From Sphingobacterium thalpophilum (GTDB lineage Bacteria > Bacteroidota > Bacteroidia > Sphingobacteriales > Sphingobacteriaceae): a stretch of 64,000 nt of DNA. The position numbers and the translations under genes were made by a program. Each line of letters starts with the position of its first letter. The first letter of the stretch is position 1. The DNA lies in NCBI RefSeq assembly GCF_901482695.1, contig NZ_LR590484.1, forward strand, positions 310,001-374,000. Reading direction: 5' to 3'. The notes beneath the pieces were generated by a model. That model worked only from the letters and a program-made list of their open reading frames with translations, had not been told where the DNA came from and did no database searches. Below are positions 38,459-47,991 of this stretch, in pieces.

Positions 38459-39559
38459 TTATTCGACGATAATGTGAATACCGACCATTTTGGCTTTATA
38501 TTTAATTTTTTCAATTAACCCATAGTAGCTCCAGTTGCGCAACAAGAATTGATCTTCTTTTGCCATTTCTTCCTTACTGGATTGATTAACCAGTAAGAGG
38601 GTACCCGCTTGAGCTTTGACACATAGCTCAATTAATTTTCGACTATACAAATGAAGTTTTGTATCTACATAGTTTTTCTCCTTTTTGTTATAGTGTTCTA
38701 AACTTTTCATCTTCCGTTTCCTACCTCTCCCGCCCTTATTAAAGGCAGCCGCTTTTTGCAGTCGGTGTCTTGCGGCCTGAATGGCCATACGACGATAGGT
38801 AAACTCTTCCTTATTTCCAATCTGAAAAGAATCTTTACCGATGACCACGGAGATAGGATGTTCGATAGATAGTGAAGCCTCAGCGATAATATTATCTTTT
38901 AGTTCCTGAATTTTCTTGGGAAGCTCGAGCGCCAGAAGCAAAAAAATTTTGCCTTTGACGATCTTGATCGCGCTGCTACAGACCTTGATCTGTCCGACCA
39001 GTGCACGCTGGAGCAACACTTTTTTGTCTGACCGATCCTTACCCAGGTAGGTGCGAAACGGTATTTTGAATAATGTGAATCTAAAATCTCGATTATTCTC
39101 ATCTTTAGTAAAATTAAGCTGTTTGCCGGGAAAGGGAATCGGCATATCCTTTTTATAATTACGAAGTGACTTTTCTCCCTTCCAGTACGCGAGCCGATCG
39201 GCCTGAAAATACTTGATCAAGGCCGTGTTTACCTGCGATAAGATTTCTGTTGGGATCCGCCCTTTAAAATAGCTGGACAATACCTTATAGGTACTGTTCA
39301 TGCGGGAGGTCGTCAATATGCCTTCCGGATCTTTTGCCTGATCGGTTAGTTTTATTTTGGCATCATCATGCAGATAGATCAGATCTTTTAGATTCTCCTG
39401 AATATATTGATGCGTGATGACCATATTGGCACCACGGAAGACGATATCCTGCCATTCGAAGAGCTGCTTAAAATATGCTGATCTTTTTTCTTTATCATCG
39501 CAATCCACAAATACCTGTATCTTGCGGGTCAATACCATGGTTTCGCTAGCCATATTCAT
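38459..39559 (-). CDS. cas12f: Nuclease-dead Cas12f/TnpB-like protein (dCas12f)
   Basis: The 366-residue protein has an alpha-helical N-terminal half (about 30-130), a basic WED/beta-like part (about 135-215, FRFTLFKIPFRTYLG and KGKIFLLLALELP) and a RuvC-like C-terminal part. RuvC-I is SVVIGKDSFQIG (236-248; D243 may be the retained acid). The helical bridge with GGRGRKRKMKSLEHYNKKEK (276-295) is typical of Cas12f/TnpB. The RuvC-II strand reads TLLLVNQSS (320-328), where the catalytic Glu is expected but absent. The protein ends at GIHIIVE, before the zinc finger and RuvC-III Asp. It should bind guide RNA and DNA but not cut. It starts 9 bp after the sigma-factor gene. Confidence 0.88.
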   Translation of the reverse strand: MNMASETMVLTRKIQVFVDCDDKEKRSAYFKQLFEWQDIVFRGANMVITHQYIQENLKDLIYLHDDAKIKLTDQAKDPEGILTTSRMNSTYKVLSSYFKGRIPTEILSQVNTALIKYFQADRLAYWKGEKSLRNYKKDMPIPFPGKQLNFTKDENNRDFRFTLFKIPFRTYLGKDRSDKKVLLQRALVGQIKVCSSAIKIVKGKIFLLLALELPKKIQELKDNIIAEASLSIEHPISVVIGKDSFQIGNKEEFTYRRMAIQAARHRLQKAAAFNKGGRGRKRKMKSLEHYNKKEKNYVDTKLHLYSRKLIELCVKAQAGTLLLVNQSSKEEMAKEDQFLLRNWSYYGLIEKIKYKAKMVGIHIIVE

Positions 39560-39568
39560 ATCATTTGT

Positions 39569-40381
39569 TTATGCTATTTTCTTTGCTGATTTAATCTTGG
39601 CGTGTGCATTGATAAATAAGGTCCGTACCTGCCCTCCATCCAGCTTAAGCGCTTCGGAAATTTTGTCAAAGGAATATTGCAGTTCATAGCGCATACGGAA
39701 GACCTCCGCTTCTTCTTCAGTCATTTCGCAGTTCAACTTAAATTCCACAGGCTTGGCGATAAGGTTCATTTTTTCCTCGCTATTCACAATGGAACGCAGG
39801 AAATCAATTGTTTTCTCTACCCTTAAACTCACTTCATAGTCTGAAATTCCTCCTATGTAATACGCTATGCGTTCGTAGTTAAAACTATATTTGAGACAAA
39901 GGCGGATAAAAAGCTGCTGATCCGTGTGGAGGTTGGGCAGGATGGCATGCAGTTGTTCTAATTTTTTTTTCTTTTCCAGCTCCAACTGTTCGATATAGAC
40001 AAGGTCTTCCTCCTGCTCTTCCTCCGGTTCATAACTCAGCATAAATTCCTGATAATCCTCGATGCCGTCCAGGCGGAGCAGGCTACGATGAAACCTATTG
40101 CGTGATTTTTGGTAAAACGCATGGATTGCGGATTTCACCTGCGATTTTAAGAAGTCGAGCACCTCGGCTTCGGAGTGTATGTTTTCTCGAAACAGCCAGA
40201 GCCGCAGGAATGCCTCCTGCGCTATGCTTTCTCCCGCGCAGTCATCATCCGTGGCACGCTGCGCGCGGAAAAAGAAGTAGTCGTAGAACTTTTGATAAAA
40301 GAACTTCAGCCCTTTTTCGTTACCCTGACGAAGGCTATTAATTGCGTTTTTAATGTCTTTGTTTAGTCGAATTACGTTCAT
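39569..40381 (-). CDS. ECF sigma factor linked to dCas12f
   Basis: The 270-residue protein is longer than usual ECF sigmas (about 170-200). Residues about 10-95 form sigma-2 (AINSLRQGNEKGLKFFYQKF, then AGESIAQEAFLRLWLFRENI). An acidic linker spans 107-127. Residues about 137-190 form one sigma-4-like helix-turn-helix (LPNLHTDQQLFIRLCLKYSF ... RIAYYIGGIS) and residues about 219-268 a second (MTEEEAEVFRMRYELQYSFD ... KISEALKLDGGQVRTLF). It is the first gene of the operon with dCas12f, 9 bp upstream of it. By analogy it would bring RNA polymerase to sites chosen by the guide RNA. No anti-sigma gene is beside it. Confidence 0.87.
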   Translation of the reverse strand: MNVIRLNKDIKNAINSLRQGNEKGLKFFYQKFYDYFFFRAQRATDDDCAGESIAQEAFLRLWLFRENIHSEAEVLDFLKSQVKSAIHAFYQKSRNRFHRSLLRLDGIEDYQEFMLSYEPEEEQEEDLVYIEQLELEKKKKLEQLHAILPNLHTDQQLFIRLCLKYSFNYERIAYYIGGISDYEVSLRVEKTIDFLRSIVNSEEKMNLIAKPVEFKLNCEMTEEEAEVFRMRYELQYSFDKISEALKLDGGQVRTLFINAHAKIKSAKKIA

Positions 40382-40609
40382 AATCAGTTATAAGGTTAGC
40401 AATACATCACTCACTTATGACCGCTCCAGCGCGTTTGTTGGATTTTTTTGCACCAGAGCCTGGCTAAGTATACTGGTTATGTTCTTATAAAACGTATTGG
40501 TATTGAATGGAAGACCAGCTACTGCCCTTGGACCTAATGGTTATCAGCAGTGGCCTACTTGGACACCAAACTGAACAATTATAGTTCTCCCGAAATCGCT
40601 TTTAAGTTA
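40382..40609. promoter_or_regulatory. Leader between array 1 and the sigma-factor gene
   Basis: 228 bp from the last array repeat to the sigma-factor start; on the minus strand this follows the final spacer. A TACGTTTT box (complement near 40482-40489) resembles TAnnTTTG. No coding frame is supported. Confidence 0.35.
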
Positions 40610-40902
40610 GTTGCATATCCCCAAATTTTGTGATTATCTACAGCCGTTGGTACCGAGTTTGTTTTTTGTTCAGTTGTGTATACCCTATATTTTGTGATTA
40701 CAAACAGGTGTCCAGGTAAATCGCTAGGAGTTCGACCAGTTGTGTATACCCTACATTTTGTGATTACCAACAGGTGTTGTTTAAAGAATTAAATGCTAAT
40801 TTGTTGTGTATACCCACATTTTGTGATTACTAACAGGTGATCTAATTTTTTTCTAAAACAAAGATACGTTTTGTCTACCCGACAATACTGATTACCAAAA
40901 GG
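40610..40902 (-). CRISPR. CRISPR-like array 1 (five degenerate repeats)
   Basis: Repeats at 40610-40644, 40673-40708, 40739-40774, 40803-40837 and 40868-40902 (34-36 bp) are separated by 28-30 bp spacers. On the minus strand each repeat ends GGGTATACACAAC, and this -CAAC end directly before the spacer resembles Cas12f crRNAs. The repeat core is TTTTGTGATTA (plus strand) and the ends vary: the first repeat and the one at 40868 are the most degenerate. The unit runs co-directional with the sigma/dCas12f operon and follows the tracr-like element at 40922-41044. Confidence 0.88.
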
Positions 40903-40921
40903 ATACAACCTATCAATACCC

Positions 40922-41044
40922 GATCATCAACAACGACGATAGGTCGAAGGTACAACGCCACACAAGCATCTCAATTTCTTTATTTTATAAAGGGTATTTA
41001 GTGAGTCGTCTTTACGCTCACCCTACGGCATCACAAGATGCCTC
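40922..41044 (-). ncRNA. tracrRNA-like element, copy 1
   Basis: A 123-bp element that is about 96% identical to 41425-41548 (four substitutions and one extra base). On the minus strand it starts with the hairpin GGCATC-TTGT-GATGCC (41027-41042), then a GTGAG/CTCAC stem (41001-41021) and the segment ATACCCTTTAT (40987-40997). That segment pairs at 10 of 11 positions with the repeat core ATATAGGGTAT. A CGAC/GTCG hairpin follows, and it ends TTGATGATC, similar to the 5' end of one repeat type. This is the expected form of a tracrRNA for a Cas12f guide. Its promoter is not clear. Confidence 0.72.
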
Positions 41045-41105
41045 AGTATATCATTTTTGAAAATTCTCTCACTTCTTTTCAAAACGCTGGATCGATAGAA
41101 AACAT

Positions 41106-41404
41106 ACCTATTTTACCACTAGTTTTATGATTACCGAAGAGCTGCGCCTTAAGACAGCTTAAGGTGGTACCGTTATGTATACCCTATATTTTGTGATCAT
41201 CTACAGCCAAAGGACTCTTCATTTGTGTAGCAGACAGGTTGTGTATACCCTACATTTTGTGATTACCAACAGGCCTACAGAGCAATCGCGGCGATGGACT
41301 TTCGTTGTGTATACCCTATATTTTGTGATCATCTACAGCATAAAGGAATTTAGAAAAGCTATAGACTCGTTGTGTATACCCTTCATCTTGGGACCATCAA
41401 CAGG
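41106..41404 (-). CRISPR. CRISPR-like array 2 (five repeats)
   Basis: Repeats at 41172-41207, 41238-41273, 41304-41339 and 41369-41404 (36 bp each), with a degraded repeat at 41106-41141 (19 of 36 matches), are separated by 29-30 bp spacers. Two repeat forms alternate: those ending (plus strand) ATTACCAACAGG and those ending ATCATCTACAGC. The spacer at 41142-41171 contains an internal hairpin, CCTTAAG-CTGT-CTTAAGG. It is preceded on the minus strand by the tracr-like copy 2. Confidence 0.88.
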
Positions 41405-41424
41405 GTCACACCTCCTAAAAAACT

Positions 41425-41548
41425 GATCATCAACAACGACGATAGGTCGAAGGTAAAACGCCACACAAGCATCTGAATTTCTTTATTTTATAAAGGGTAT
41501 TTAGTGAGTCGCCTTTTACGCTCACCCTACGGCATCACAAGATACCTC
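41425..41548 (-). ncRNA. tracrRNA-like element, copy 2
   Basis: A 124-bp copy of the element at 40922-41044. The 5' hairpin (41531-41546) is weakened to one G-U pair by a G-to-A change (plus strand). The anti-repeat segment (41490-41500) is unchanged. The start near 41548 is estimated. It lies about 65 bp downstream, on the minus strand, of a palindrome like those next to the XRE gene. Confidence 0.72.
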
Positions 41549-41611
41549 CATATAGTATTCAATACCAATAAGTCAAAGAACGTTTATATCAGCCAAAAAA
41601 ATCACTTCTTT

Positions 41612-41621
41612 TTTGCGCAAA
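41612..41621. promoter_or_regulatory. Palindrome site near guide module 2
   Basis: TTTGCGCAAA, the core of the palindrome that also lies upstream of the XRE gene. It sits 64 bp before the 5' end of tracr-like copy 2 on the minus strand. Confidence 0.5.
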
Positions 41622-41921
41622 TAAATCCTAGCTCCGCCAAGGAGTCAGTTACTCATTCCAACGAATTATTTATTTAAAATCCTGTGCTTTGAATGGTAAA
41701 TACAAGGCTAAATAGTTGTCACTAACACAGGATGCGAGATACAGGTCTATAAAATTTATCCAATTTTATTCTGGTGACCTGACAATATTTTTAATACGTA
41801 ATTTTCTCATTTAATAAATTTTGCTTCCGATACAACGCCAAAGATGCAAGTAAATCAATGTCGCTACAGCGGCTCATATTTAGTTATCGGCTATCTTTGA
41901 AACAAAGATAAAAAACTAAAA

Positions 41922-41937
41922 TTATTTGCGCAAATAA
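41922..41937. promoter_or_regulatory. Perfect 16-bp palindrome upstream of the XRE gene
   Basis: TTATTTGCGCAAATAA, with a half site repeated at 41965-41975 just before the XRE start; a probable autoregulatory operator. Confidence 0.6.
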
Positions 41938-41989
41938 AAACACAAATATTTTTATTCATTATATACGCAAATAAATTCTCCTTTTGTAT

Positions 41990-42463
41990 ATGGCAGAGAT
42001 CAATGAACAAATACTTAAGGAAATAGGTGAGCAGTTGCGTAAACAACGCGAGAAATTATATTATTCGCTGAAAGATATCGCTAATATGACAGGATTAACG
42101 ACCAATACTATAGCTGCTATTGAGCGTGGTAAGGGGGCTTCGCTCAACAATTTTATTCTCATCTGCCGAGCATTGCAAGTACAACCGCAGGCCGTATTCA
42201 ACAATCCCATACCGCTAACCCCACCCTTTAGTATACCGCCTGAATCCAAACGACGAATTGCGCTGACCAAAGAACTGGACGAACTGGTTTACCATTCCGA
42301 TTTTTTTGAAACGCCAAGGCGTGTTTCGGATGTGATCCAGCACATGGAAGCAGATAAGGATCAAAGTAATCGCTTCTCTGTTTACCTCGGCAGTTATTGC
42401 CAAGAAGGAACGCTTGAATATGAAAAACTTGGTAATTACAAGGTATATCGAAAGAAAAAATAG
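41990..42463 (+). CDS. XRE family regulator
   Basis: A 157-residue protein from the ATG at 41990 (MAEINEQILKEIGEQLRKQR); the frame opens at a TTG 6 bp earlier. The helix-turn-helix is YYSLKDIANMTGLTTNTIAA (about residues 24-43), followed by IERGKGASLNNFILICRALQ. The C-terminal part (about 75-157) is of unknown kind and contains no toxin or peptidase motif. It points away from the guide modules, with palindromic sites between. It may control its own gene and the adjacent guide RNAs, but that is inference. Confidence 0.85.
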   Translation: MAEINEQILKEIGEQLRKQREKLYYSLKDIANMTGLTTNTIAAIERGKGASLNNFILICRALQVQPQAVFNNPIPLTPPFSIPPESKRRIALTKELDELVYHSDFFETPRRVSDVIQHMEADKDQSNRFSVYLGSYCQEGTLEYEKLGNYKVYRKKK

Positions 42464-42620: not shown

Positions 42621-45600
42621 CTATTTTAAGGTGACGTCCAGATACACCGAATGCCGTCCATAGGTATCATAAAAGGGCTTAAAGTGAACGCCGTCGATCG
42701 TAAAGTTCAGCTCCTTAGGGTTTCCTTGAATAGTTTTGCCAAGATCTTCCGCATCTAGAGTGACTTTCCGCCAGTCTTTCCTTGCGGCCGGTTCCTGAGC
42801 CGCCAACAATATGGGTCCATAAAACAAGCTTGCAATATTTTGCTGATCCATTACAGGGTCCAGACGAAACTGAAAAGGCATGTGTACGACGATTTCATCA
42901 CCATCTTTCCAAGTGCGGCTCAATTTGAGGTACGTACCTGGCTGAGCCTTCACATTTTCGGCTTTGCCATTGATCTTGACATCAAACCCCTTGGTCGCCC
43001 AGCCCGGTACGCGAACAAAGATGTCAAAATGTCCGTTCCCGTTTATTTTAAGTTTGCTGTGGTCGTCTTTTGGAAAGCTCGTCATCTGCTCAATGGTGAC
43101 ATTACGCGACGTCCAGTTTAAGGTTGATGGGATGAACAAATTGACATAAAGTGCCTTATCATCTTTGCTCCTGTAATAGATGGCAGTCTGAAGTTTCGTA
43201 CTGCTTTCTATGGCCGTACCATTACAGCAGGTAAACCCCGTCATATCCGGATTGCCAAACTGTTTGACTGAGCCGGGCCGTAGGGGTACGTGATAGGTAT
43301 TCGCAGGCGTATTCTCGGCTACCGACGCCAGAATATGGTTATACAGTCCGCGCTCATAGTAATCCATATACGCTGCTCGCTGGTCAAAAAGAAACAGATT
43401 ACCAGTCAATTTCAACATATTATAAGTGGCACAGGTCTCGTTTTGTCCCCCCGCCGCAAAACCGTTTTCATACAGGGTAGCAGGTTCGGCAGTAAACACT
43501 TCAGCATTGGCCGGATTGCGGGCTCCCGCCACGCCGCCGATACTATACATATAATCATTGACTGCTTTGTACCAGAAATTGTCCGCCACCTTATAATATT
43601 CGGGCATGTTGGATACATCGTACATCACGATACTGCCCACAATCTGGGGTATATGCTGATTGGCATGCAATCCACGGAATGTATCCACATTCTTCGCCAG
43701 CCCGTGTGTACGCTGTGCATCGCCAAAAAACACATCGATGTTATCAAACATCTGTGCGGTCTTCAGGTATCTGTCCTGCTTCGTGATACGATATAGATGT
43801 GCCATAGTTTCGTTCATACCGCCAAACTCACCTGCAATATAGGTACTCCACATGTTGATCAGCGTATCCTTGGGCAGCCGGCTCAAGCGGACATGCACCC
43901 AGTCTGCCATACCTTCGGCAATCTCCAGTGCTTTTTTGTTGCCACTCACTTCGTATACATCCACTAGGCCTGCCAAAATCTTGTGTAAGGTATAGTATGG
44001 TGCCCAGATCTGATTTGCCTGTCCACCATATTTAGCCCCTCTTTCGAGCATGATAAACTGGTCAGGAGGATAAGCACTGATGAAACCTTTCCCCCAATTC
44101 CAATAATCTGTCCGAATCCCCTGCTCGCTCAGGTCCGAATCATACTCCTGCTTACCGGGCCCCGGTGGTACTTTGGCTGGATCTGAAACGGCAGCAGCCC
44201 CGGGTGTTTTAGGTTTGCCGGACAACTGGGAAAGCTCGTACAGTGTATTGACCATGTAGGTCATTTTATCCGCAAACTTCTGCTGGAGCTCCTTATCATA
44301 GGCCGTGCCGGCATAAGCCTGGGCGATAGCAGTGAGGTAATGTCCTGTAGCATGCCCGCGGAGCTTGGTATCCTGGCTATCCCACACACCTAAGGGTTTA
44401 GCTCCCGCAGGCTGGGCTATACCAAACGCATTGCGGAACATGTAAAGAAAAGAGTTCGGATCGGTTGTTGACAAGGTCCGGATAAACTTATCTCTATTTT
44501 CTATAAATTTCGTCTTTTGATTTTGTTCATCCGCTTCCAAAGAGACCTGACTTAAGTCAAAGGGTTCAAGCTTAGCACTTGGTGCTGTCGATTTCTTCGC
44601 TCCTCTTACGGTAACAATCGCCTTGGCTTGGAGATCTGTGCCGGGTATACGACCCATCACCGTGTAGCGTCCAGCATCCAATACCGTGCTATTATCGTTT
44701 GGCGAAGGCCATAACACACGTACTTTTGGCCCCTTCATTCCATCTTTGTAGGTGCCGTTTACGAAACTTGGCAGCCTCGGCAGCTCACCGATACCAGTCT
44801 CGACCTCCACATCCGAAACTGAAAGTAAATAGGCATTGTAAAGCTGTGATTGTGTCAACGGAAAGCTCGGAAGGTCTCCTTCCGTATCCCGTACGTTTAC
44901 CGCCGTCCGGTTACCCCGCTGGGCACTTTGAAAAATGCCTGCGACCTGATTCTCAGTAAGGGGGACCCTATATATACGAAAGTCGCGTATCATGGCATCC
45001 AAATTGGGGTCTCCGGATAGAAGGGACTTTCCAATATATAGCTGCTTTGTCCCGCCAGAAGACGTGCCAAATACATCTATTAGCTCTTTAGGTATATCGT
45101 TGCTTTTTCCTACGGGCTTGCCGTCGAGATAAGTGGTCAACGATTGTGAAGGGATATCGACTACAATGGTCAGGTATATCCACTTGTTCAGGTCGATCGC
45201 AGCAGAGACGGCAGCTTTTGTATTTGCCCGGCCAGCCGTGATCAGCGCATGATAACCCTTTTGTTCAGTTACTCCCATCGGAGCAACCGAAAAATGACTG
45301 TCGGCGTCCTTCCCAAAATCAAAAAAACGCTGATTGATTTTATTTGATCGTAAGAAAATCCACCCAGATATACTTACAGATTCCATGTCGGTCAGCGCAT
45401 CTCCGGGAATGATCACATAATCATTGTGCTCTCCAGAAAGCGACAGGACCTTTCCGAACCGGCGGTCGTTGACGAATTTCGGTAGAGAACCATGCCTGGC
45501 GTGCAGATTATTTCTCGACCAATCTTTTAAGTCTCCTTTAAACAGATACCGTGCAACCATTTCTGTTTCGCCGATGCCGTCCAAAATCTGATCCCCGCTC

Positions 45601-45680
45601 TGGGCATGGCCAAAAGATAATGCTCCGCACAGGTAACATATCGGGACAATAGTACGTATAAGCAATTTGTATATCTTCAT
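42621..45680 (-). CDS. GH127/GH146-type beta-L-arabinofuranosidase with LamG domain
   Basis: A 1019-residue exported protein from the ATG at 45680 (signal peptide MKIYKLLIRTIVPICYLCGA; the open frame runs 32 codons longer). Residues about 30-260 are a LamG-like concanavalin domain (VARYLFKGDLKDWSRNNLHA, LYIGKSLLSGDPNLDAMIRD). Residues about 370-1010 are the arabinofuranosidase (alpha/alpha)6 domain, with zinc and catalytic cysteines in NETCATYNMLK and FTCCNGTAIESS. Family members remove beta-L-arabinofuranose, HypBA1 from hydroxyproline-linked chains. It is the last gene of the hydroxyproline operon, which supports that substrate. Confidence 0.88.
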   Translation of the reverse strand: MKIYKLLIRTIVPICYLCGALSFGHAQSGDQILDGIGETEMVARYLFKGDLKDWSRNNLHARHGSLPKFVNDRRFGKVLSLSGEHNDYVIIPGDALTDMESVSISGWIFLRSNKINQRFFDFGKDADSHFSVAPMGVTEQKGYHALITAGRANTKAAVSAAIDLNKWIYLTIVVDIPSQSLTTYLDGKPVGKSNDIPKELIDVFGTSSGGTKQLYIGKSLLSGDPNLDAMIRDFRIYRVPLTENQVAGIFQSAQRGNRTAVNVRDTEGDLPSFPLTQSQLYNAYLLSVSDVEVETGIGELPRLPSFVNGTYKDGMKGPKVRVLWPSPNDNSTVLDAGRYTVMGRIPGTDLQAKAIVTVRGAKKSTAPSAKLEPFDLSQVSLEADEQNQKTKFIENRDKFIRTLSTTDPNSFLYMFRNAFGIAQPAGAKPLGVWDSQDTKLRGHATGHYLTAIAQAYAGTAYDKELQQKFADKMTYMVNTLYELSQLSGKPKTPGAAAVSDPAKVPPGPGKQEYDSDLSEQGIRTDYWNWGKGFISAYPPDQFIMLERGAKYGGQANQIWAPYYTLHKILAGLVDVYEVSGNKKALEIAEGMADWVHVRLSRLPKDTLINMWSTYIAGEFGGMNETMAHLYRITKQDRYLKTAQMFDNIDVFFGDAQRTHGLAKNVDTFRGLHANQHIPQIVGSIVMYDVSNMPEYYKVADNFWYKAVNDYMYSIGGVAGARNPANAEVFTAEPATLYENGFAAGGQNETCATYNMLKLTGNLFLFDQRAAYMDYYERGLYNHILASVAENTPANTYHVPLRPGSVKQFGNPDMTGFTCCNGTAIESSTKLQTAIYYRSKDDKALYVNLFIPSTLNWTSRNVTIEQMTSFPKDDHSKLKINGNGHFDIFVRVPGWATKGFDVKINGKAENVKAQPGTYLKLSRTWKDGDEIVVHMPFQFRLDPVMDQQNIASLFYGPILLAAQEPAARKDWRKVTLDAEDLGKTIQGNPKELNFTIDGVHFKPFYDTYGRHSVYLDVTLK

Positions 45681-45744
45681 ATCGTTATAAAAATTTGTAC
45701 ACATATATAAAACTTGAAAAGTGTAATCGGCCCCCCTCACTGTC

Positions 45745-47991
45745 CTAATAAAGGTTCCATGCCGGCGGGTTGACACCTAGTAGATGCTTGACAAAAAAAT
45801 CTCTTCGTTTTTTCTCTCCAAAATCACCGCCAGAAGAATGCCCCATGCCGGGTACCATGATAAACTCATGATCTTTACCGTGCTTGATCAATTGATTGAC
45901 CAATTGATAAGTTGAAGCTGGATCCACGTTGTCATCAAGTTCGCCCACTATCAACATCAGCTTACCCTCCAGGCGGTATGCGTTTTCGGTATTTGAACAC
46001 GCAGCATATTCCGGTCCTATCGGCCAGCCCATCCATTGTTCATTCCACCAGATTTTATCCATCCGGTTGTCATGACATCCGCAGGAGGATACCGCAACTT
46101 TGTAAAAATCAGGATGAAAGAGCAGTGCTGCCGTCGATGACTGTCCCCCGGCCGATGTGCCATAAATGCCTACCTGTTGTATATCCATATAGGGATATCT
46201 GGAAGCTGCAGCCTTTATCCAGGCAATACGGTCCGGAAAGCCGGCATCCTTTAAATTTTTCCAGGCCACATCATGAAAAGCCTTGGATCTGTTGGAAGTT
46301 CCCATTCCATCGATCTGCACGACAACAAAGCCCAATTCAGCCAGCTCGTACATTCCCGAAGGGTTTGCAGAAAAACTTTTGGGAACAAATGAACTGTGAG
46401 GCCCGGCATAAATGTATTCGATCACAGGATACTTTTTATTTGGATCAAAGTTTCGGGGCCGGACAATAATACCCCAGATATCGGTTTTACCATCCCTCCC
46501 CACGGCCGAAAAGACTTCAGGGGCTTTCCAGCCTGTGCTTTCCAGTTCACTAATATCGGTCCTTTCCAATTCCATGAGAATCCGGCCGTCAGCAGCATCA
46601 CGCAGAACTGACGTAGGCGCTTGGTTTACCGTCGAATACACATCGACAAACAGGCTGTAATCCCCGTTGAAGGTGGCTTGATGGTTTGCCAGCTCGGGCG
46701 TTAGCTCTTTAAGACCATTCCCGTCCAGACCGATGGAGTAATAACGAATCAGATAGGGATCTTCACCTTCTTTCATGCCGCTCGCTTCAAAAATTATTTT
46801 TCTTTTTGCTTCATCCACATGCACCACTTTGCGTACTACCCATTGTCCTTTGGTGATCTGTTTTTTCAATTTGCCGGTTGTTCCGTCAAAAAGATAAAGA
46901 TGGTTCCATCCATCGCGTTCGGAGGCCCAGATGATCTCTTTTGTCTCCTGTAAATCATGTCTGTATTTCTTGCTGCTATAATCAATAAAGGTGGGGCTGG
47001 TCTCCGAAATCACCACGCTGGTCTTGCCATCCACTGCACTGAGCGCCATAATATCATAACGCTGGTGTCCACGCTGATTATACTCGAAGGTGATACTATT
47101 GTTGTCTGGACGCCATGCCAATTCGGATAAAGTAAACTGGTTGGCGACCCTCATCGGATCCACAGGAAATATTTTACCATCTTCCACCCAGATGATCGCT
47201 GGATAATATTGCGGCAAAGCGTCACCTGGCTTAACATAGTCCCGTGTCTGCAATTTTGGCTGCAGCTGATCGACAGGAGACGATTCCAGCAGAGTTAACT
47301 GTCTTACCTCTGCTTTGCGCACTTTTGAAACGGCAATTTTCTTGGAGTCTGCAGACCATTGGATACGAGCCATGTAATACTCGCCCGGACTGCCGTCAAA
47401 AGTAAGCTGCTTCTCTGTCTTTGCGTCCCCTTTTCTACTTACGTAAACATTGCTGTTCTTGATGTAAGCAGTATATACCTTATCGGGAGAATCCACCGCC
47501 TCCCCTTTGCTGTCATCACGGCGCATGCCCCAGTAAGATCCACCTCTACGATCAAAATCATTTTCTTTGGCCTTCCCCGTCCGAGTCAGTTTTTGTGCAG
47601 ATGCATTCCACGTCCAGCTTATGCCCTGCTCCACAAATTCGATTTCATTTGCGTTCAGCACCTTTGTCCCCCTGCCCCAATATCCGCTTAGTCTGACTGC
47701 GGAGCCGAGTTCGGCAGTCAGTTGTTTCTCAATCTCGCCAACGTCGGTAGCCTGCTTTTTCTGCGAAACCACGTCGACGATATGCAACATGGACCGTCCA
47801 CCTTTAGCCGTGGTACGGTAGCTAAAACTCTGCCCTTTCTCAGACCAAAGAATCTGCTGGGGTATGCCATAAATCTTGGCAAACGTCTCCCGTATTTCTT
47901 TAGCCCGTTTATAATCCTCCAAAGTCCCCTGAGCCATGATAGCCAATTGGCAGAGCATAAACGATAACACTGCAATTAATTTCAGTTTCAT
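45745..47991 (-). CDS. Prolyl oligopeptidase / dipeptidyl peptidase IV-like (S9) peptidase
   Basis: The 748-residue exported protein has a signal peptide (residues 1-20), a DPP IV-like beta-propeller (about 90-480) and an alpha/beta hydrolase domain with Ser613 ([12 protein letters not shown]), Asp686 ([10 protein letters not shown]) and His718 ([11 protein letters not shown]). S9 peptidases cut after proline, or hydroxyproline in some cases, in short peptides. Within the hydroxyproline operon it fits release of Hyp from peptides. The arabinofuranosidase start lies 64 bp downstream. Confidence 0.9.

Follow-up and report, generated by a model that had tools for sequence, protein, structure and literature searches.

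A 64,000-nucleotide stretch of the Sphingobacterium thalpophilum chromosome (the window, G000:C1:310001-374000) is predicted to encode an RNA-guided transcription system. On its minus strand, a tracr-like (trans-activating CRISPR RNA-like) element followed by a repeat-spacer array occurs twice in tandem, then a gene for an extracytoplasmic function (ECF) sigma factor and, 9 bp beyond that open reading frame (ORF), a gene for a Cas12f-like protein. We propose, with a probability of roughly 0.8, that the putatively nuclease-dead Cas12f (dCas12f), the ECF sigma factor and the two tracr-array modules constitute an RNA-addressed sigma factor that switches on dispersed SusC/SusD-type uptake operons. 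The gene content, the loss of catalytic residues, covariation in the tracr-like elements, spacer matches far above those of shuffled controls, a flanking motif and the strand-specific placement of those matches in two clades support this proposal at the level of sequence. Below, G numbers denote genomes and L numbers loci excised from them; G000 is the window's own genome (5.96 Mb, a single contig). The components are as follows.

38459..39559, minus strand: dCas12f gene, 366 aa, for a predicted nuclease-dead guide-RNA-binding protein (PDB match, RuvC residues replaced)
39569..40381, minus strand: ECF sigma-factor gene, 270 aa (NCBIfam TIGR02937 above cut-off; PDB 9n9q_C)
40580..40903, minus strand: array B, five repeats, the first degenerate, with guides B0-B4
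Array B repeats, minus strand: 40868-40903 (degenerate), 40803-40838, 40739-40774, 40673-40708, 40610-40645
Array B guides, minus strand: B0 40838-40867, B1 40775-40802, B2 40709-40738, B3 40645-40672, B4 40580-40609
40904..41044, minus strand: tracr-like element B, structured core 40983-41044 (94% like element A)
41143..41404, minus strand: array A, four repeats, with guides A1-A4
Array A repeats, minus strand, from the repeat search: 41369-41404, 41304-41339, 41238-41273, 41172-41207
Array A guides, minus strand: A1 41340-41368, A2 41274-41303, A3 41208-41237, A4 41143-41171
41405..41548, minus strand: tracr-like element A, structured core 41487-41548 (likeness to element B, covarying hairpins)

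A first-pass annotation of the DNA had described a Cas12f-like gene without its catalytic end, 9 bp behind an ECF sigma gene, and the ORF coordinates together with a RuvC alignment confirm this. The alignment comprised the window protein and 24 of 25 relatives (L046, a partial match, was left out). The RuvC-I Asp position is Ser229 and the RuvC-II Glu position Val324 in 24 of the 25 aligned rows, L048 having a gap, and the Cas12f-like protein stops before RuvC-III. The window protein is thus predicted to be nuclease-dead. Its nearest structural relative is PDB 9n9c_A, named 'Nuclease-deactivated Cas12f' (phmmer E 3.2e-120, residues 4-365), and the best PDB chain named as a Cas12f nuclease reaches only E 5.1e-41. 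The profile search proposed in the first-pass annotation had a mixed outcome for this protein, for which a Pfam scan gave no family and the NCBIfam model guided_TnpB gave E 4.7e-15, under that model's cut-off. The sigma ORF passes the NCBIfam model TIGR02937 (sigma70-ECF; 44.4 bits against a cut-off of 42.9) and matches PDB 9n9q_C, 'RpoE', at E 1.5e-33. Both nearest relatives, dCas12f and sigma, are contained in PDB 9n9q, a solved dCas12f/RpoE complex, and the kind of system is therefore already known. The annotation's view that no cas1 or other cas gene lies nearby also held: none besides the Cas12f-like gene was found among seven neighbouring ORFs scanned with Pfam and NCBIfam, and Cas1 has no match anywhere in the window's own genome.

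The two same-strand arrays upstream, each after a structured element, are likewise as first described, with 36-nt repeats and covarying hairpins. They amount to nine repeat-spacer units, A1-A4 and B0-B4, and array A is followed by a degenerate terminal repeat at about 41105-41142 (by eye). Tracr-like elements A and B are 99-nt copies, 94% alike. Across 49 tracr cores, 96.1% of the cells in their two hairpins are paired. Cells changed on both sides number 59 (22.5 in shuffled alignments) and covariation is 0.287 (0.144 shuffled), values that none of 500 shuffles reached.

To locate where the guides point, we searched with concatenated spacers against G000 and ten close relatives, and then, as an independent test, against a more distant clade represented by six genomes (dCas12f 75-76% identical); 17 genomes were covered in total. 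Matches within arrays were dropped before counting, including a piece of array at the G001:C4 contig end that was recognised by its spacing, as were six matches that a single guide has immediately upstream of the arrays. Non-array matches at E ≤ 0.01 numbered 20 and 17 in the close genomes and 14 in the distant clade. Of these 51, 45 (16/20, 15/17 and 14/14) lie at or upstream of a SusC/SusD-type TonB operon, that is, upstream of, or in the first ORF of, a co-directional run that includes genes for a SusC-like TonB receptor and a SusD-like protein. All 45 share the strand of the operon. Two of them (L107 and L145) were classed by a leader ORF, described below, or by a TlpA-like ORF, because the contig ends before any SusC gene, and a match at a contig end in L113 was counted in neither class. 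Two of the 45 lie far from the operon, in L092 at 3.3 kb and in L021 at 5.8 kb with another co-directional gene between. Targeted operons often open with a thioredoxin-like (TlpA-type) gene. A TonB plug domain was found in all six SusC-like products scanned and a SusD domain in both of two; other SusC, SusD and TlpA genes were named by length, position and likeness, mostly by eye.

A separate count of distinct matched sites in the excised DNA gave 92, of which nine lie elsewhere and 83 near a SusC operon; the latter are all co-oriented (83/83) and not independent of one another, because orthologous regions recur. Most of them (56/83) fall within 600 bp of the operon, 47 in intergenic DNA, nine in the operon's own first ORFs and none in an opposite-strand ORF. 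Spacers were pooled across genomes and a site is often matched by a relative's spacer, spacer and site coming from the same genome in 17 of 114 matched pairs. Some spacers match the chromosome perfectly (30/30 or 31/31) and others at near 80%, which indicates that arrays or targets change. The concern raised at the outset, that spacers might lack any genomic target, is not the case, since guides match chromosomal sites upstream of genes (45/51 across genomes, and three of nine guides in the window's own genome). With the PDB relatives, the RuvC loss and the co-orientation, these chromosomal matches support, at the level of sequence, the RNA-guided dCas12f-sigma transcription system that the annotation had put forward.

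As a control, 243 of 271 spacers (those of at least 29 nt) were compared with 0.6 Mb of excised DNA at a threshold of at least 24/30. The real spacers gave 114 matches from 56 of the 243, and two dinucleotide shuffles and a reversed set gave 1, 0 and 0, figures that describe the chance rate and not an unbiased match rate, because the DNA was chosen for holding real matches. Grouped into 50 site families, the targets have a pyrimidine (Y, T or C) at -2 in 45 and a purine (R, A or G) at -1 in 42. The 5' YR dinucleotide occurs in 38 families (p = 5e-14 against flanking composition). A transcript that starts on the far side of the protospacer and runs into the operon would fit the strict co-orientation, the motif beside the sites and the presence of a sigma partner. 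In the published dCas12f-sigma system, transcription reportedly starts about 46 bp from the target-adjacent motif (TAM).

Three of the window's own guides have co-oriented operon sites in its own genome. A3 matches 27/27 at G000:C1:4979634 (L021), 2.2 kb before a SusC operon. B0 matches 25/27, extended 26/30, at G000:C1:3359887 (L022), 0.55 kb before an operon of leader ORF, TlpA and SusC genes; B0 follows a degenerate repeat and contains the promoter-like word TATCTTTG, and could be a promoter instead of a guide. A2 matches 23/30 at L086:6494, which lies 2.4 kb ahead of an operon; the same kind of place is matched 28/30 in S. puteale. For B2, the sites lie in relatives' leader ORFs, with no counterpart found in G000.

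Several observations weigh against this reading, in addition to the choice of control DNA and the recurrence of orthologous sites. Five of the 51 matches (L087, L088, L091, L097 and L105) are not near a SusC operon, and they include two 30/30 self matches, L091, which is antisense to a relE-like ORF (by eye), and L105. Operon sites in the own genome were found for only three of nine guides (A3, B0 and A2), and the operon of A2, L086:9255-13275 (G000:C1:4407254-4411274), is broken by a transposase-like gene (by eye). A4 matches best over a run of 17 nt within an unrelated ORF, the best match of B1 (21/22) extends across the start of a lemA-like gene, that of B3 (25/29) lies inside a bamA-like gene (both genes by eye), and A1, B2 and B4 had no site in the G000 search. 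Because A1, A4, B1, B3 and B4 are without a credible site there, the strain's array appears partly out of step with its targets. A second copy of the A2 operon's leader ORF, 98% alike, lies at 4433788; the operon behind this copy looks intact, and genes of IS21 type (by eye) precede it.

The details of target recognition also fit imperfectly. The minimal TAM of the published system is reportedly 5'-G, and only 17 of the 50 site families have G at -1; the 5' YR resembles more closely the TTTR protospacer-adjacent motif (PAM) of the nuclease Un1Cas12f1. No TAM-proximal seed bias was found, with mismatches of 43/470 at positions 1-10, 44/470 at 11-20 and 74/466 at 21-30, going up at positions 29-30. 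The annotation's claim of an element complementary to the repeat core stands in part: a pairing of AUACCC with GGGUAU can be drawn in both modules, and the duplex energy is suggestive for module A only, being matched by 18 of 500 shuffled repeats there and by 147 of 500 in module B, which is not significant. Anti-repeat covariation between the clades did not discriminate (7.17 of 9 positions paired with own repeats, 7.04 with those of the other type), and repeat-tracr pairing is thus weakly supported. A promoter-like sequence of the form TTG-N17-23-TAnnTTTG occurs within 600 bp of 9/43 operons and on the other strand of 0/43; with this Bacteroidota-type sequence upstream, RNA guidance need not be the operons' sole control. 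Finally, 27 of the 83 sites lie 0.65-5.8 kb upstream, which is far for a promoter.

We hypothesize that the array transcript would be cut into guides, which would base-pair with tracr and be taken up by dCas12f. The dCas12f-guide complex would then open DNA beside the 5' YR motif, the bound sigma factor would recruit RNA polymerase, and transcription would begin downstream of the protospacer and run into the uptake operon. With an array in place of a single guide, one sigma factor could serve many operons. We infer complex formation, polymerase recruitment, start site and activation from the solved relatives and from the orientation of the sites. The divergent XRE-type protein encoded next to the module likely controls it, and in L031 a guide also points upstream of that locus's own tracr.

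The distal sites invite another reading, in which the system is mainly a silencer, and guides inside opposite-strand genes would drive antisense transcription or a polymerase block through the promoter-proximal genes of the unit head-to-head with the uptake operon, a unit that often holds regulators and, at greater distance, defence genes. All 27 distal sites are beyond 600 bp from the operon, on its upstream side, and 20 of them are antisense inside an opposite-strand ORF. Beyond the opposing genes, PADLOC families were found in four of five loci of a first set (GajA/GajB, PDC-M62A, DrmA with PDC-S15, AbiD) and in eight of ten of a second (E ≤ 1e-20; SIR2-pAgo, Tmn, NsnB, HEC-04, a CBASS-type phospholipase, methyltransferases and a restriction enzyme). 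The defence gene opposes the operon's strand in 11 of the 12 loci with a PADLOC match (L109 has it on the same strand), hence in 11 of the 15 scanned, a frequency that is no unbiased rate because the scanned proteins were chosen for a defence-like look. However, the proximal sites (56) outnumber the distal ones two to one, with not one inside an opposite-strand ORF, the 20 antisense sites are scattered over the full length of the opposing ORFs (relative position 0.06-0.93), and a sigma partner suits activation. The idea that distal guides fall inside defence genes was rejected, as none of the 83 sites lies in a PADLOC-hit ORF checked (eight loci with matches), and this lowers the odds of silencing, which we consider unlikely.

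Varied anti-phage defence blocks, Gabija and restriction-modification among them, stand head-to-head with the targeted operons in L103, L086, L022, L089, L119, L110, L116, L140, L142, L143 and L146, as if targeted SusC operons were marks of a defence-gene hot spot. A more speculative extension is that the arrays are rewritable and, with no Cas1 of their own, capture DNA upstream of SusC operons; a guide would turn the receptor on, distal guides would oppose the head-to-head unit, and receptor choice and defence would be switched together. Here too the absence of sites from PADLOC-hit ORFs lowers the odds, and we regard such a joint switch as improbable.

A repressor of the TldR kind, with the sigma gene a mere neighbour, is less plausible still. 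TldR proteins are TnpB-derived RNA-guided repressors that use one guide and are not known to have a sigma factor; repressing, nuclease-dead relatives of TnpB and Cas12f are known. The system described here is like them in being predicted to be nuclease-dead and RNA-guided and to regulate surface-structure genes, and unlike them in having arrays and a sigma factor. The sigma gene adjoins dCas12f in 24 of 25 loci, PDB 9n9q holds both nearest relatives, and a pure roadblock would not need 83/83 co-orientation, which together make this reading very unlikely. Immunity of the type V CRISPR kind, whether still ordinary or now a relic, with spacers from mobile DNA, is suggested by the tracr-bearing repeat-spacer arrays and by the 30/30 chromosomal identities, which point to recent capture. 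This reading is made hardly credible by the lost catalytic residues, the failure to find Cas1 in 10 of 11 genomes, the one-strand sites upstream of one operon type, and the absence at E ≤ 0.1 of phage matches for the window and L033 arrays and of plasmid matches for the L033 array. The same catalytic loss, chromosomal targets and missing phage and plasmid matches for the arrays tried support, at sequence level, the annotation's preference for regulation over immunity.

The RNA-addressed sigma factor that we favour has close parallels in solved structures. PDB 9n9c, 9n9m, 9n9o and 9n9q we take to be the Flagellimonas dCas12f-sigmaE system of Hoffmann, Sternberg, Chang and colleagues. Its Cas12f, nuclease-dead and equal in length (365 aa, E 3e-120), and its sigma factor of RpoE type (E 1.5e-33) resemble those of the window. 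The Sphingobacterium system differs in its two tandem tracr-array modules with nine guides (7-22 repeats in 20 of 26 loci), in its 5' YR in place of the minimal 5'-G reported there, in the divergent XRE gene that 18 of 25 relatives carry, and in a natural SusC/SusD-type target set, as predicted from the sites. With the Cas12f (type V-F) nucleases 9nzr and 9nzo it shares homology over residues 86-363, a tracr with repeats ending in -CAAC and, given the TTTR of Un1Cas12f1, a T-rich 5' flank; unlike them it lacks the RuvC Asp and Glu and the C-terminus, has a sigma partner, and has no Cas1 that we found. What appears to be new with respect to the published kind is an array-programmed, multi-guide system with a predicted regulon of SusC/SusD type. 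Among the papers listed by a literature search that did not extend to preprints, none dealt with dCas12f-sigma systems or their natural targets.

Many targeted operons open with a leader ORF of about 124 aa (L135:9789-10166 and homologues). Its product belongs to no Pfam family, is all-helical in an AlphaFold model (pLDDT, the predicted local distance difference test score, 77.7) and matches nothing in the PDB at E ≤ 0.001. Operons with this leader ORF are present in 26 of 93 genomes, and their dependence on dCas12f over these genomes is partial only, which again tells against our reading: 6 of the 26 have no dCas12f match and two more have a decayed copy only. A single leader-ORF family as the sole target in the own genome was considered and rejected: only three copies were found at E ≤ 0.01, with eight thioredoxin-like domain matches at E ≤ 1e-8, and some targets in the distant clade lack a leader ORF.

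Relatives of the system are widespread in the genus. A scan of genome contigs gave 25 relative loci, all labelled Sphingobacterium except L044, labelled as a Neobacillus metagenome-assembled genome and probably mis-binned, and dCas12f has a match at E ≤ 1e-30 in 54 of 93 same-genus genomes. A sigma homologue directly precedes dCas12f in 24 of the 25 relatives; some of the loci other than the 18 with a divergent XRE gene are short contigs. The first-pass annotation had taken tandem tracr elements, several spacers and an adjoining XRE gene to be peculiar to this locus, an impression that did not survive the comparison, as all are common in the genus. Two to six tracr cores are present in 20 of 26 loci with the window counted, and the repeat numbers given above, on the same count, are approximate because the finder was tuned to the window's clade and counts degenerate repeats; for that reason zero repeats in L037 and L044-L047 are no evidence of absence. 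Several genomes have two full-length dCas12f genes, and G014, G062, G066, G085 and G087 have decayed or fragmentary copies (internal stops or C-terminal pieces). The 11 genomes searched for Cas1, some of them drafts, yielded a single one, L090:11053-11955 (G003:C1:2315235) of S. detergens, which belongs to the block of genes that lies upstream of one of the targeted SusC operons.

Further features surround the modules.

40481..40507, no strand assigned: inverted copy of the conserved block preceding tracr A (TCAATACCAATA core)
41558..41581, minus strand: conserved block GTTCTTTGACTTATTGGTATTGAA (24-27 nt identity among relatives)
41677..41706, minus strand: possible self-target site, matched by a guide of L031
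41984 (TTG) or 41990 (ATG) to 42463, plus strand: divergent XRE-type regulator gene (Pfam HTH_3, 40.3 bits)

The XRE gene is adjoined by a GH127 beta-L-arabinofuranosidase gene with laminin-G-like and Big_4 domains (42621-45776, minus strand). In L028-L034, L049 and L050, 24-27 nt of the block GTTCTTTGACTTATTGGTATTGAA are identical 5' of the first tracr, and the block probably acts as promoter or operator for the tracr-array transcript. Each of the 11 close loci has the TCAATACCAATA core of the inverted copy once, near the sigma gene. The conserved block thus flanks the whole tracr-array region in inverted orientation, and its copies may act as a promoter or operator, or mark a recombination end. 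The arrays of L027, L028, L030, L032 and L034 contain a recurring short spacer-like unit close to TATATTTGTTTTGCGATACCACGG, without a chromosomal match in the first search of the close genomes, that looks like an internal promoter. The L031 guide matches 27/30 a site within L031 itself, located 135 bp upstream of the conserved block that precedes the first tracr there. That site is matched 26-28/30 in eight relatives, L031 included, and 24/30 in the window, 128 bp upstream of the block. None of the window guides matches the site, and autoregulation is therefore suggested for L031 only.

As a class of regulator, RNA-guided sigma factors have come to light only very recently. The two clades of one genus examined here combine arrays reaching about 20 guides with a flanking motif and with sites that keep a strict orientation ahead of a single operon type, and the predicted regulon is directly testable in culturable strains. 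The findings raise the question of how regulatory arrays gain guides without a Cas1 of their own, and they place surface-receptor operons and anti-phage defence genes side by side. If the proposal is correct, Sphingobacterium would offer a natural multiplex gene-activation system.

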